Positions 118 to 6,752 of a stretch of DNA of 64,000 nt are shown here, in pieces. The DNA is taken from assembly GCF_947305105.1 (NCBI RefSeq), contig NZ_CAMZCS010000008.1:1-64000 (forward strand). The letters run 5' to 3'. Each line of letters starts with the position of its first letter. Position 1 is the first letter of the stretch. The notes beneath the pieces were generated by a model. The model was not told the origin of the DNA and did no database searches. It saw only the letters and a program-made list of their open reading frames with translations. Both the position numbers and the translations under genes were made by a program. The DNA is from an uncultured Fibrobacter sp. (GTDB lineage Bacteria > Fibrobacterota > Fibrobacteria > Fibrobacterales > Fibrobacteraceae).

Positions 118-1164
118 CTAGCGTTCTACAACAAGAGTACCGGGATATATTTCGGCAACGCAGTCGTTACAATACAACATCAGATCATAAGTATTTTCCG
201 GAAGCGCATCGACTGTAATATACCCGCGTTCCACATCCTCAAGCGAAATTTTAATGTCAGGAGTCCAAGTATAGCACTTATTAACGTTATAGCAATCCAT
301 GCTGTGAATGCTCAAATACACGCCTTTCTCCAGAGCCTTTTCCACAGGAGCATCGACAACATCCCAATCGCCATCATGCTCTTCTATGTCTCTAAAATGA
401 ATGGAATCCAAAGGCACATTGACTGAATAGGCCGGTTCCAAAGACACATTACCTACGTCAAGAATATTACGACCATCAACTTTAATCATAGAAGCTTCAT
501 CAAAGCGAAGGCTTTCATTGGTGCCAAACTTTTTGTTCTCCGAAATAACGCGAGTCGGCAAGTTATTAAATACGGGAATATGTTCCATTCTCGCCGCGCC
601 ATCTTCCGCACGCGCCGCTTTACTAGAATCCGCATAAACCGGGATGCCCTCTTCATACGTCAAGAAATTCACACTTTCCATATAAAAGTATCCGTCACCA
701 TCCGTCGTAAACCACCGGCAATCATCACTATAAGATGGACAAGATTCTTCGGTATAAACCTTGGCGTTGGCCAACGGTTTCCCACTCGGATCAACCACAC
801 GCCCCTTCACATCCGCATACAGATAGATGTCCTTATGAGCGCCACATGTTATTCGACCCCATTCTATAACCTGCGAGCCTTCCAATGTCGTGAGCGTATC
901 CACCTTATATTCGATTTCCTCCTCGTCATCAACAGTATCTTTGGAAGTTTTTTTCGCAAGGGTTTCTATTACGCACGAATTTTTTCCATCGCTGAATTTC
1001 TTTTCAAAATCGGCCGTATCCAGACTTGCAACCGACGGATTACCCGTATTCGTCTCGCTGAGTGTTGATGCCGAACTGGCATTATCATCACTACAACCAA
1101 CGAACATCCCAAGACCAAGCAAAGCAAAGGCAAGGCCCGTTTTTGTCAACTTATTAATAAACAT
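118..1164 (-). CDS. Lipoprotein with a carboxypeptidase-regulatory-like segment
   Basis: A 348-residue predicted lipoprotein. The hydrophobic signal ends in a lipobox-like FVGC with Cys24 as the lipidation site. A low-complexity Ser/Thr/Asn stretch follows. Around residues 118-135 the pattern GRVVDPSGKPLANAKV is typical of carboxypeptidase-regulatory-like (CarboxypepD_reg) beta-sandwich domains, with several Cys nearby. The rest is unrecognised. A strong GGAGG sits 8 nt before the ATG. It lies 17 bp after the TIGR02147 gene on the same strand, so the two are probably co-transcribed and the lipoprotein may be its partner or target. Surface or periplasmic location is inferred from the signal. 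Confidence 0.75.
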   Translation of the reverse strand: MFINKLTKTGLAFALLGLGMFVGCSDDNASSASTLSETNTGNPSVASLDTADFEKKFSDGKNSCVIETLAKKTSKDTVDDEEEIEYKVDTLTTLEGSQVIEWGRITCGAHKDIYLYADVKGRVVDPSGKPLANAKVYTEESCPSYSDDCRWFTTDGDGYFYMESVNFLTYEEGIPVYADSSKAARAEDGAARMEHIPVFNNLPTRVISENKKFGTNESLRFDEASMIKVDGRNILDVGNVSLEPAYSVNVPLDSIHFRDIEEHDGDWDVVDAPVEKALEKGVYLSIHSMDCYNVNKCYTWTPDIKISLEDVERGYITVDALPENTYDLMLYCNDCVAEIYPGTLVVER

Positions 1165-1181: not shown

Positions 1182-2009
1182 TTATTTTTTCAAATTTGTG
1201 AATAAATGAACATTCAACTGGTGAACGCCAGTCGCCTTCTTCTTGTCGAGCATAATAATCTTACGCACCTTGGCCTTCAGGCCCTGGATTTCTTTGGCAA
1301 TCGCCTTGAAAGCATCATCGGAAACGCTGAAAGTGAAAGTAGCCATATCCGACGATCTTTCGTCACTTGCAAGTAGAGCCTGCTTTGAAAGTTCAAAGCA
1401 CTGCAGCTGATACTGGCGCACCAAATCGCTATTGTTATAGGCGCCGCTGCTCACCGAGTCGCGGCAACTTTTCCAGAAGCCATTCTCGTTCTTCCGCACA
1501 AAACCGAGGCGTTCCAACAATTCCAAGGAACGTTTCAGAGTACCCACGGAAACCTTCGGGGAAATCAATTTCTGGATAGGTTCAAGGTCGTCCGAAACAT
1601 CCACAACTTCCAACGCCGTAAACAGCACGCTGTTATACCAGTGACTATAATATTCGTAGGCGTCTTCGTTCAAGATGCGGTGGGAATCCGGGTGCTGCTT
1701 CAGCAGTTCCTCGAAAAAAGCGTTCCGTTCCGTCGCGGTCTTCGCCTGGTCCATGTTCACCATGGCCTCGAAATACTTGGCTTCTTTTTTATTCAGGCCA
1801 AGCACTTCAACAAACTTGGGAATCATCCGGCTAGAAAGCTTTTTCCCCTTGATAATGTCGTTATAGTAACTGCGAGTCTTGGGGAGCCCCAACAGCGCAC
1901 ACGCTCCAGCCCTAGTAAAATCAGGGTCTGTCTGCACGCGAGCGGCCTGGTACTCGTCCAAGTACTTGCGAAAGTTCGTGAATTGAAATATGTCAATAAT
2001 TTTGTCCAT
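1182..2009 (-). CDS. TIGR02147 family protein, putative transcription regulator
   Basis: 275 residues matching the layout of TIGR02147, a paralogous family first noted in Fibrobacter: N-terminal DIFQFTNFRKYLDEYQ, then a helical segment at roughly 30-75 that reads like a helix-turn-helix (ALLGLPKTRSYYNDIIKGKK), then a basic C-terminal part ending near LDKKKATGVHQLNVHLF. The function of the family is not settled; DNA binding is inferred from the N-terminal helices. A canonical promoter lies so close upstream that the transcript would begin at or next to the ATG, and symmetric repeats overlap it, suggesting autoregulation. The lipoprotein gene follows 17 bp downstream. Confidence 0.85.
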   Translation of the reverse strand: MDKIIDIFQFTNFRKYLDEYQAARVQTDPDFTRAGACALLGLPKTRSYYNDIIKGKKLSSRMIPKFVEVLGLNKKEAKYFEAMVNMDQAKTATERNAFFEELLKQHPDSHRILNEDAYEYYSHWYNSVLFTALEVVDVSDDLEPIQKLISPKVSVGTLKRSLELLERLGFVRKNENGFWKSCRDSVSSGAYNNSDLVRQYQLQCFELSKQALLASDERSSDMATFTFSVSDDAFKAIAKEIQGLKAKVRKIIMLDKKKATGVHQLNVHLFTNLKK

Positions 2010-2014
2010 ACCCT

Positions 2015-2085
2015 AAATGTACTCAAAATTTGACTCAAAGTCAATACCTTTTGCGAAATTTTTGAGATTTTTTTTGAGTACATTT
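2015..2085 (-). promoter_or_regulatory. Leaderless-type promoter inside a symmetric operator
   Basis: On the minus strand TTGACT (2039-2044), 17 bp, then TACATT (2016-2021), with only 6 nt between the -10 box and the ATG at 2009. Transcription would start at about the A of the ATG. A perfect 14-bp inverted repeat, AAATGTACTCAAAA (2015-2028) and its complement (2072-2085), encloses the promoter. It contains the half-site CTCAAA twice on the left (2022, 2034) and TTTGAG twice on the right (2061, 2073), both pairs 12 bp apart. This looks like a cooperative repressor site, possibly for the adjacent TIGR02147 protein. Confidence 0.6.
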
Positions 2086-2097
2086 AAAGATTATGGA

Positions 2098-3865: not shown

Positions 3866-4750
3866 ATGAGTCTAAAATTTGAAACCCCCATTACCGAAGT
3901 TCCGCTGTTCCACCAGGGCAAAGTACGCGACATGTACGACCTGGGCGACAGCTTCCTGATGGTCGCCAGCGACCGTCTTTCCGCTTTTGACGTGGTGCTC
4001 CCCACCCCGATCCCTGGTAAGGGCAAAATCCTCAACCAGCTTTCGCTGTTCTGGTTCCAGCACCTCGGCATGAAGAACCACCTCATCACCGCCGACGTGA
4101 ACGAATACCCGGACGTGCTCAAGAAGCACGCCGACTACCTCCGCGGCCGTTCCATGATCGTGAAGAAGGCCCACCGCCATTCCGTGGAATGCATCGTGCG
4201 CGGCTACATCGTGGGTTCCGGTTGGAAGGACTACCAGAAGACCGGCAAGATCTGCGGTCATGTCCTCCCCGAAGGCCTGCAGCTCTGCCAGAAGCTCGAA
4301 AAGCCGCTCTACACGCCGAGCACCAAGCCCGACGTTGGCCACGACGAGAACATCAGCTTCGAACAGACTTTCGATATCGTGGGCGAAAAGGTCGCAACAA
4401 CGCTCCGTGACATGTCCCTCGACATCTACACGAAGGCCCGCGACTACGCTGCCTCCAAGGGCATCATCCTCGCCGACACCAAGTTCGAATTCGGTGAAAT
4501 CGACGGCGAAACCATCCTCATCGACGAAGTGCTCACGCCGGACTCCAGCCGTTACTGGCCGGCAGACAAGTACCAGGTCGGCAAGAACCAGGAAAGCTTC
4601 GACAAGCAGTACGTCCGCGACTGGCTCGAAACTCTCGACTGGGGCAAGACCTACCCGGGTCCGGAAATTCCGCCTGACGTCGTGAAGAACACGCTCGCCA
4701 AGTACGAAGAAATCTTCGTGCGCCTCACCGGCAAGCAGCCGGAACTGTAG
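3866..4750 (+). CDS. purC: Phosphoribosylaminoimidazole-succinocarboxamide synthase (SAICAR synthase)
   Basis: Cytosolic purine-biosynthesis enzyme joining CAIR and aspartate with ATP to give SAICAR. At 294 residues it is the longer form seen in many bacteria and yeast. Recognisable blocks: GKVRDMYDLGDSFLMVASDR near residue 14, SAFDVVLPTPIPGKG, VECIVRGYIVGSGWKDYQ (substrate-binding core), and ILIDEVLTPDSSRYWPAD near residue 217. Codon use is G+C-rich, as in other housekeeping genes here. A TAAATT box at 3850-3855 lies 10 nt before the ATG, so the leader is probably very short. It appears monocistronic. GGCGGA-TTTAA-TCCGCC in the upstream gap (3761-3777) can form a hairpin ending the HU-like gene. 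Confidence 0.96.
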   Translation: MSLKFETPITEVPLFHQGKVRDMYDLGDSFLMVASDRLSAFDVVLPTPIPGKGKILNQLSLFWFQHLGMKNHLITADVNEYPDVLKKHADYLRGRSMIVKKAHRHSVECIVRGYIVGSGWKDYQKTGKICGHVLPEGLQLCQKLEKPLYTPSTKPDVGHDENISFEQTFDIVGEKVATTLRDMSLDIYTKARDYAASKGIILADTKFEFGEIDGETILIDEVLTPDSSRYWPADKYQVGKNQESFDKQYVRDWLETLDWGKTYPGPEIPPDVVKNTLAKYEEIFVRLTGKQPEL

Positions 4751-4787
4751 AACGCTTGGGTCTAGAAAATAGAGACTACCTTTGACC

Positions 4788-4895
4788 ACTTAGTGCTTTA
4801 GCACTTATGTGGGCATGGCCACCTTTAGGTGGGTGGCAAGTGAATAAGAATCACGCACTTCGTGCGTCAATATAAGACGGCGAAGCCGTGATATT
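4788..4895. repeat. Intergenic run of four small perfect palindromes
   Basis: The 228-bp gap between purC and the next gene holds four compact hairpins in a row: AGTGC-TTTA-GCACT (4792-4805), CCACC-TTTA-GGTGG (4819-4832), CGCAC-TTC-GTGCG (4854-4866) and ACGGC-GAA-GCCGT (4877-4889). The first is followed by TATGTGGGCATGGC, which resembles the GTGGC-containing segment after the first hairpin of the elements at 9324 and 17267. None has a T-run, so simple termination is not indicated. Confidence 0.6.
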
Positions 4896-4896
4896 T

Positions 4897-4940
4897 CTCC
4901 CTAGCCCCTAGATCCTAGATTCTAACCCCTAATTCCTCAT
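4897..4940. repeat. CTAG-rich intergenic repeat, copy 1
   Basis: Short run of near-repeats of CCTAGATTCTA / CCCCTAG. The same motif recurs at 59861-59934 and 63151-63231, with a looser version at 57959-58042. It lies between convergent genes and has no coding potential. Confidence 0.55.
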
Positions 4941-4978
4941 ACCTCAAAGGGGCTTTAGCCCTCGCTCACCGCTCTCCG

Positions 4979-5665
4979 CTACTTTTTCGTCAAGCGAAGT
5001 ATTCCTTGCTTGTTGTATTCGGGGCTGTCTTTCGGAAACGGATTTTTCGCCTCGGCGCGGAGCACGTAGACTTCGCCTTCGCCAATGTCCACCTCGGAGC
5101 CGGACTTGGCGGGAATGCAGTCGCCATAGATGGCGTCTGCAGCCAGGAGCAATGCGCTTTCCGCATTCTCGACCGACTTCGCGAGGCAAAGGTCGGGCAA
5201 CGAGAACGCCGCCATTCCCAGAGTATAGACAACGTTGTCCCCTTCCACGAAGTTGATCCACGTGTCCATGGGGAATTCCACGTCGCCGAGCACTTCGCGG
5301 AAACGCTCCGCCGTCCAGGCGGTTCCGGACTGCTGCATGTACACGCCGAGAGCGCCCGCAGCGAGAATCTTCAATATGGCGGAGTCCACCTGGCTCACGT
5401 CGTCGATGGACTTGACTTCGCCCAAGAGGAACAGGAGCGACTTGTGCGCATCGATGGCCGCAGACTCTTCGGGAGAGACGGAATCGTTCTCGGAAAACAG
5501 GCCCGAGAGCCCCGCAGCGGCGGCCTGGCGCACCACGTTAAATTGCACGCCGCAACCCGGTATGATGACGTTTGCGGTATCCTTGTCGATAGAGACGTGG
5601 TCCGTAACCTTGAACGGTTCATCACAGGCGACGTTCAGCGGGAAGGCAAGCACAAACTGCGGCAT
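4979..5665 (-). CDS. Uncharacterized protein, possibly DUF4261-like
   Basis: 228 residues, acidic, with no signal peptide or membrane segment, so probably cytosolic. The segment NVVYTLGMAAFSLPDLCLAK (about 165-185) recalls the TxGMxxFGxPE pattern of DUF4261 proteins, but the match is weak and no function is assigned. GGAGAA lies 8 nt before the ATG and overlaps the end of the upstream glycosyltransferase gene, whose stop is 1 bp away, so it is the last gene of a three-gene unit with the two glycan-related genes upstream. Confidence 0.7.
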   Translation of the reverse strand: MPQFVLAFPLNVACDEPFKVTDHVSIDKDTANVIIPGCGVQFNVVRQAAAAGLSGLFSENDSVSPEESAAIDAHKSLLFLLGEVKSIDDVSQVDSAILKILAAGALGVYMQQSGTAWTAERFREVLGDVEFPMDTWINFVEGDNVVYTLGMAAFSLPDLCLAKSVENAESALLLAADAIYGDCIPAKSGSEVDIGEGEVYVLRAEAKNPFPKDSPEYNKQGILRLTKK

Positions 5666-5666
5666 G

Positions 5667-6752
5667 TCAAGTTCTCCTTAAAATTTGGGTAACGGCATCC
5701 GACAAAAGCGTATTTTTGGATTGTCGGGGCAATTCAACAACATCGGCCCGTTGCAGAGCTTTACTCAACGAATCTACAGACAACGAACCTTCTTCTATAG
5801 ACACAGCGAAACCCGCTGCCGACAAATCCGCAGCCAAGACAACTTGCTCGTACTGGCCCGGCGTAGGTACAAAGATGCACTTTGCACCGAGCACTGCCAT
5901 ATCCATGACCGTACTGTAACCGCCACGCGAAATAACCCAGCCGGCCCTGGAAATCACATCCGCAAATTCCTGTGTCGGCAGGTGATTATAAAACGTCACA
6001 TTCCCTGCAGTCCAAGTTTTCAGCGAAGAAGCGGGCTTGCCCAAAATGACCACATGTTTACCGGGAATTTGCGGAAGCACGGAACTGAGTCTGGACGCAA
6101 ATCTGGAGCGCGCCGGTTCCACACCGGACACGACTGCGACAATGTTCAAGTCTTTTTCGGTGGACTGAGTCAACGGAAGCATCGCAAAACGCGAAAGCGG
6201 GCCCACGAACTTGAGCGGGCGCGGGCAACGCTCGACATGGGACAAGCTTCCCGCATAGCCGGGGAACTCGGGAACGTCGGGCACCCAGACTTCGTCAAAA
6301 CGCGACATGACCGAAGCGTGCCAGGCGGCACCGAACGCTTCGAACATTCGCAACATTTTCGGGAAAGCTATCCGGCATTGGTGCGTCATGTAGACGCTCT
6401 TCGCCTTGCGGGAACGGAACGCGAAGCGATTGTCCGACACCAAAATGTCGTAGCCGTGACGCTCAACCATTTCTTCGGCGTAATGGTGTTCCGCGCGCAT
6501 GACGGCCCGCAAATGGGCGCTGTTTTTCAACAGCCAGAACGCCATGTTGTAGCCGTGTTTGGGATAGACTATGTTGTAAGACGGTGCCAAGCGCTGGCGC
6601 ACATCGGGAAACATCTCGCGCAAAATGGCGGCATTTCCCCTGGTCACTGCCAGTTCCACGTCGCAGCCCTTTTCCAGGAACTCACGGACAACCGGCGCAC
6701 ATCGCGTCGCGTGTCCAAGACCCCAGTCCAGCGGCGCGACGAGAACTTTCAC
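5667..6752 (-). CDS. MurG-like (GT28-type) glycosyltransferase
   Basis: 361 residues with a GT-B two-domain plan. The N-terminus reads KVLVAPLDWGLGHATRC, the glycine-rich acceptor-side loop of the MurG/MGD-synthase group. The C-terminal half has VISRGGYSTVMDMAVLGAKC and FVPTPGQYEQ, the nucleotide-sugar-binding signature of glycosyltransferase family 28. The acceptor is unknown; a lipid-linked sugar is plausible. The start is GTG immediately after the TAA of the upstream gene, with GGAGG 8 nt before it, so translation is coupled to the large membrane protein. No signal peptide; probably peripheral to the inner membrane. Confidence 0.85.
   Translation of the reverse strand: MKVLVAPLDWGLGHATRCAPVVREFLEKGCDVELAVTRGNAAILREMFPDVRQRLAPSYNIVYPKHGYNMAFWLLKNSAHLRAVMRAEHHYAEEMVERHGYDILVSDNRFAFRSRKAKSVYMTHQCRIAFPKMLRMFEAFGAAWHASVMSRFDEVWVPDVPEFPGYAGSLSHVERCPRPLKFVGPLSRFAMLPLTQSTEKDLNIVAVVSGVEPARSRFASRLSSVLPQIPGKHVVILGKPASSLKTWTAGNVTFYNHLPTQEFADVISRAGWVISRGGYSTVMDMAVLGAKCIFVPTPGQYEQVVLAADLSAAGFAVSIEEGSLSVDSLSKALQRADVVELPRQSKNTLLSDAVTQILRRT

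Follow-up and report, generated by a model that had tools for sequence, protein, structure and literature searches.

Genes, promoter and inverted repeat at the locus

The window, by which we mean the whole 64,000-nucleotide stretch of DNA from an uncultured Fibrobacter sp. that was analysed, carries near its start a gene for a TIGR02147 protein and, directly behind it, one for a predicted lipoprotein. Upstream of this pair, an AT-rich intergenic region bounded by the ATG of the TIGR02147 gene (2009-2007) and the stop codon of dus (2098) holds a promoter and both arms of an inverted repeat, the coding strand being the minus strand. The features are as follows.

118..1164, minus: predicted lipoprotein gene with signal peptide and lipobox (...FVGCSDD), 17 nt past the regulator and presumed to be co-transcribed with it
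1182..2009, minus: TIGR02147 / DUF4423 protein of 275 aa, with an N-terminal helix-turn-helix (recognition helix near KTRSYYNDIIKG), a winged-helix-like middle domain at ~113-192 and a C-terminal remainder
2014..2039, plus: proximal arm of the proposed operator, in opposite orientation to the distal one (GTACTCAAAATTTGACTCAAA, 2019-2039), centred on 2029 and overlapping the promoter spacer and -10
2016..2021, minus: -10 hexamer TACATT, lying 6 nt from the ATG and sharing bases with the outer half-site; the transcript is predicted to be leaderless
2039..2044, minus: -35 hexamer TTGACT, assigned from sequence and conserved in orthologs
2061..2086, minus: distal arm of the proposed operator, TGTACTCAAA plus an inner CTCAAA 12 bp off (GTACTCAAAAAAAATCTCAAA, 2081-2061), centred on 2071, about -62 from the ATG

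By sequence inspection, TAAATGTACTCAAAA (2014-2028) and TTTTGAGTACATTTA (2072-2086) form perfect mirrored arms of 15 bp, one more than the 14 bp counted in the initial annotation, and the pair can be extended to 26 nt at 81% match. The same annotation placed two CTCAAA half-sites 12 bp apart on each side. Copies with this spacing indeed lie at 2022-2027 and 2034-2039 on the plus strand and at 2078-2073 and 2066-2061 on the minus strand, but each perfect arm contains only one of them, the second lying 12 bp further inward. The inner copies look like weaker versions of a TGT-anchored word, which at this locus reads TGTACTCA; this word, the lipoprotein partner and the geometry shared across the family are additions to the initial annotation. 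The centres of the two arms are 42 bp apart, equal to four helical turns at 10.5 bp. The promoter, TTGACT-N17-TACATT, spans 2044 to 2016, is near consensus and ends 6 nt from the ATG as annotated, but it coincides in part with the proximal arm and is not centred in the repeat.

The regulator is assigned to its family by TIGR02147 (NCBIfam, Fsuc_second, 328.4 bits against a cut-off of 50) and by DUF4423 (Pfam PF14394, 77.2 bits against a cut-off of 30). Its match to HTH_3 (E 0.037) falls below the Pfam gathering score, with other family members reaching E 1.6e-4, and a profile of the N-terminal region gives weak matches in the PDB to Xre-type regulators (best E 9.5e-4), including C.BclI (0.0076) and C.AhdI. 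An AlphaFold model (mean pLDDT 81.6, pTM 0.56) has helices consistent with an N-terminal helix-turn-helix domain, and a winged-helix-like middle domain; its residues 113-196 can be superposed on ArsR-like and MecI proteins (Z 8.0-8.5, rmsd 2.6-3.1, 73-77 residues), with a Z near the level of common arrangements. In the predicted lipoprotein, a carboxypeptidase-regulatory-like domain scores below its cut-off. A search of open papers returned zero articles for TIGR02147 and, for DUF4423, a single passing mention of Bd3700 of Bdellovibrio (PMC12546842). In keeping with the initial annotation, no DNA target of TIGR02147/DUF4423 was found in these papers.

Conservation of the repeat

That the repeat arose by chance or is a generic product of AT-rich DNA, as the base composition of the region might suggest, is exceedingly unlikely. 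Its self-match score is 29.4, against 16.4 +/- 2.3 in dinucleotide shuffles, of which 0 of 40 score as high, and the site hardly varies among orthologs that differ at about 90% of their fourfold sites. Allowing one mismatch, GTACTCAAAANNNNNCTCAAA matches only the two arms in the 3.57-Mb genome, and its reversed control has no match in the same genome. Across genomes, the pattern GTACTCA-N25-55-TTGAGTAC occurs once per genome at this promoter in 17 of the 17 genomes that bear an ortholog, with one extra, unrelated match in G034.

All 17 orthologs (82-100% identical) retain the site. Among the 15 that are free of indels, 20 of 21 columns are invariant in the distal arm and 27 of 30 in the proximal arm plus promoter, as opposed to 3 of 16 in the stretch that separates them. 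With all 17 orthologs included, the invariant fraction is 0 of 44 columns in the upstream flank and 11% of fourfold synonymous sites. The ortholog scan had been named beforehand as the test by which the initial annotation could be refuted, and it found the site in every ortholog-bearing genome and also at 24 of 24 orthologous loci in a second collection, which overlaps partly with the 17-genome set and was found with a single protein as query. The site thus lies on the promoter and is conserved upstream of the orthologs of a regulator, as expected of an autoregulatory operator.

The span from outer end to outer end of the arms is 63 bp in 15 of the 17 orthologs and shorter by 11 bp (52, L046) and 22 bp (41, L047) in the others; in the second collection, the spans are 63 (19 loci), 64 (2), 52 (2) and 41 (1). 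Steps of 11 bp, one helical turn, suit proteins bound on one face of the DNA, with few independent events behind them.

An inverted repeat immediately past the dus stop codon at 2098 could also act as RNA, either as a terminator of dus or as an mRNA hairpin. We rejected this role as very improbable: some 43 nt separate the arms, there is no compact stem followed by a T-run, the repeat lies upstream of the predicted transcript start, and the 11-bp steps in arm spacing fit duplex DNA. In several genomes (L032, L040-L047), moreover, the upstream neighbour is no longer dus and unrelated sequence stands in its place while the repeat is still present, so that its conservation is not carried by the neighbouring gene.

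Words, helices and predicted leaderless promoters across the family

TIGR02147 genes are present in tens of copies per genome across much of Fibrobacterota. The genome of the window has 35 full genes and one fragment (G000:C11:77264-77539), which carries internal stops and is apparently a decayed copy. Upstream of 158 such genes from six Fibrobacter genomes, the spacing of exact direct repeats of at least 9 nt peaks sharply at 20-22 and 70-74 bp; among 63 representatives of less than 75% identity, spacings of 69-75 bp occur 18 times, whereas shuffles give 0.6 on average and never more than 2. The repeated word differs by subgroup (TGTATCAT, TGTATAAT, TGTTGCAT, TGTTTCAT, TGTATTC/TGTGTTC and TGTTCCCA, and TGTACTCA at the window locus). 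The strict combination of word and 70-74 bp geometry fails for the window gene itself, which has inverted arms and 42 bp between centres. The proximal TGT words lie at about -50, -39 and -28 from the start, depending on the subgroup, in steps of about 11 bp, as if one helical face were kept relative to the promoter.

Across 15 genomes, the pair TGTATCAT-N60-68-TGTATCAT is matched 15 times, with 4 matches in the genome of the window and 11 in 14 relatives. Twelve closely precede a TIGR02147 start, two precede lipoprotein genes that have a TIGR02147 gene nearby, and one is at a contig end; the reversed control has zero matches in the same genomes. At least 8 paralogs in the genome of the window have the word TGTATCAT; cross-talk is therefore likely, and separation of the words is incomplete.

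A TGT-word repeat score of at least 8 is reached by 51% of paralogs, 17% of control upstream regions (drawn partly from within TIGR02147 neighbourhoods) and 4% of shuffles, which leaves about half of the paralogs without a clear repeat of this kind. With a background of 17% in control regions, we do not rely on this test alone. When repeats of any kind were scored across the 200 bp upstream, only some paralogs stood out, because base composition and unrelated hairpins compete, and the spacing and TGT-anchored tests gave a clearer signal. In a sister subfamily (~60% identity), upstream copies of TTCTCA, mostly GTTCTCA, are present at all second-collection loci whose sequence includes the start. 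The copies are often spaced by 12-13 bp and at other loci by 31-32 bp; the 12-bp spacing thus recurs across a change of word.

Conservation by itself does not name the protein that binds. A regulator other than the adjacent TIGR02147 protein, the ligand proposed in the initial annotation, could occupy the site, but we regard this as improbable: there is one site per genome, beside this gene, and the words differ between paralogs in a way that tracks the recognition helix of the neighbouring protein even when the rest of that protein is accounted for. In a Mantel test on 29 non-redundant paralogs, the more alike two recognition helices are, the more alike are their words (rho 0.50; partial 0.47 given the C-terminal domain, 0 of 2000 permutations), with a value of -0.07 for the C-terminal domain given the helix. 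Because the words track the recognition helix and not the C-terminal domain, the adjacent TIGR02147 protein is the likely ligand. The same helix type also accompanies the same word in different families of the phylum: PSLxKDI in L196 and L210 with GTTCGCAA three times, and KSPVFLKQVIEG in L205 and L206 with TGTACTC/GAGTACA. Such agreement across families is to be expected if the adjacent protein reads the word directly. A column-by-column analysis of the mutual information that helix residues share with bases is suggestive, but it takes no account of relatedness and contains a few miscalled words, and the conclusion on helix and word is drawn from the Mantel result alone.

Behind each of the 35 full regulators of the genome there is, at -26 to +17 nt, an open frame with a signal-peptide-like N-terminus and a cysteine (26 recognized by lipobox pattern, 9 by reading), and in four other genera of the phylum a lipoprotein-like gene lies downstream at 26 of 29 loci, judged by reading. 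With such a gene directly after each of these 35 regulators, the simplest target is the regulator-lipoprotein operon. A motif resembling AGG..E..N recurs shortly past the lipobox cysteine in downstream lipoproteins that are otherwise dissimilar, across Fibrobacterota. One lipoprotein gene (L081, contig C63 of G000, 4460-5908, minus strand) lacks an adjacent regulator of its own; it lies directly upstream of a TIGR02147-lipoprotein pair and has a TGTATCAT pair at 6045-6122 with the spacing of the family, and a matching arrangement is present in G008 (L221). It is possibly a second target of the neighbouring TIGR02147 regulator.

The leaderless promoter that the initial annotation had read at the window locus appears to be typical of the family. 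In the set of 158 genes, the -10 ends 6-9 nt from the start in 63 of the 93 that have a good promoter, and a Shine-Dalgarno-like motif precedes 3 of 69 genes with a -10 within 10 nt versus 15 of 21 with a distant promoter. Given the close -10 and the rarity of Shine-Dalgarno motifs, leaderless transcription is a predicted family trait.

A proposed autoregulatory switch

Taken together, we consider it likely that the adjacent TIGR02147 protein uses the repeat as an operator to regulate its own gene and also the downstream surface-lipoprotein gene; self-addressed operators with different words appear to recur before many of the ~35 sister genes per genome. In this model, the N-terminal helix-turn-helix would read the half-site TGTACTCA(AA), and the protein, probably as an oligomer, would occupy two in-phase arms about four helical turns apart, bound cooperatively or via a short loop. 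The proximal arm covers -35 and -10, so its occupancy should exclude RNA polymerase and would lead to autorepression of a leaderless mRNA encoding both regulator and surface lipoprotein. A signal, possibly acting on the C-terminal domain, may relieve the repression. From its place near -62, the distal arm may serve cooperativity, or activation at low protein levels as in C-protein operons. Binding, repression rather than activation, looping and the signal are all steps that we infer.

The sign of regulation is probably autorepressing, a reading favoured by the reach of the proximal arm from -35 to -10. Alternatively, the TIGR02147 protein may bind the site and mainly activate from around -62, the proximal arm tuning or limiting activation as in C-protein operons. 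The position of the distal arm would suit such a role, as would the proximal word in much of the family, which is often found at the -35 or just ahead of it, where an activator could act. The weak N-terminal matches to C.BclI and C.AhdI point the same way, as does C.Csp231I, whose mRNA is leaderless and which uses two operators to activate as well as repress its own promoter (PMC4824078). At the window locus, however, both promoter hexamers coincide at least in part with the conserved proximal arm, and a near-consensus promoter should need little help; we hold predominant activation to be possible but doubtful.

The system resembles the C proteins of type II restriction-modification systems (C.BclI, C.AhdI, C.Csp231I) in its putative Xre-type helix-turn-helix autoregulator, its predicted short leaderless transcript, two proposed operators at its own promoter and a downstream effector gene. 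By contrast, the window locus has no restriction or methyltransferase gene, its effector is a predicted lipoprotein, and the TIGR02147 protein is roughly three times their length, carries winged-helix-like and other C-terminal domains and has ~35 paralogous copies per genome. Linked restriction endonuclease or methyltransferase genes were likewise not found next to the 35 copies of the genome, where the next gene is lipoprotein-like in every case. Because such linked genes are absent, TIGR02147 is not a member of the C-protein class, with C.Csp231I as a close analogue in function.

Phage repressors and LacI-type autoregulators use cooperative or looped operators with repeated half-sites on one helical face and tolerate full-turn changes in spacing. 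The proposed operator in the window resembles theirs in its half-sites and spacing changes, but TIGR02147 is a different protein family and its operator words are diversified among paralogs in one genome. By analogy, this would be the known autoregulatory mode of phage repressors and C proteins, but in a family with no DNA target found in open papers.

Fibrobacterota include major rumen cellulose degraders, and the TIGR02147 family is abundant among them although neither a function nor a DNA target was found for it in open papers. More tentatively, the ~35 TIGR02147 regulators per genome might each form a self-contained module with a surface lipoprotein, many with their own word and helix and phased multi-site leaderless promoters, and together act as largely separate autoregulated, possibly bistable, switches that choose the lipoprotein coat. 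Through the operator, the family-wide geometry and the apparent correspondence of helix to word, an unknown paralogous family would become a testable set of surface-lipoprotein regulators, and would provide a natural data set of diversified DNA specificities inside one genome.
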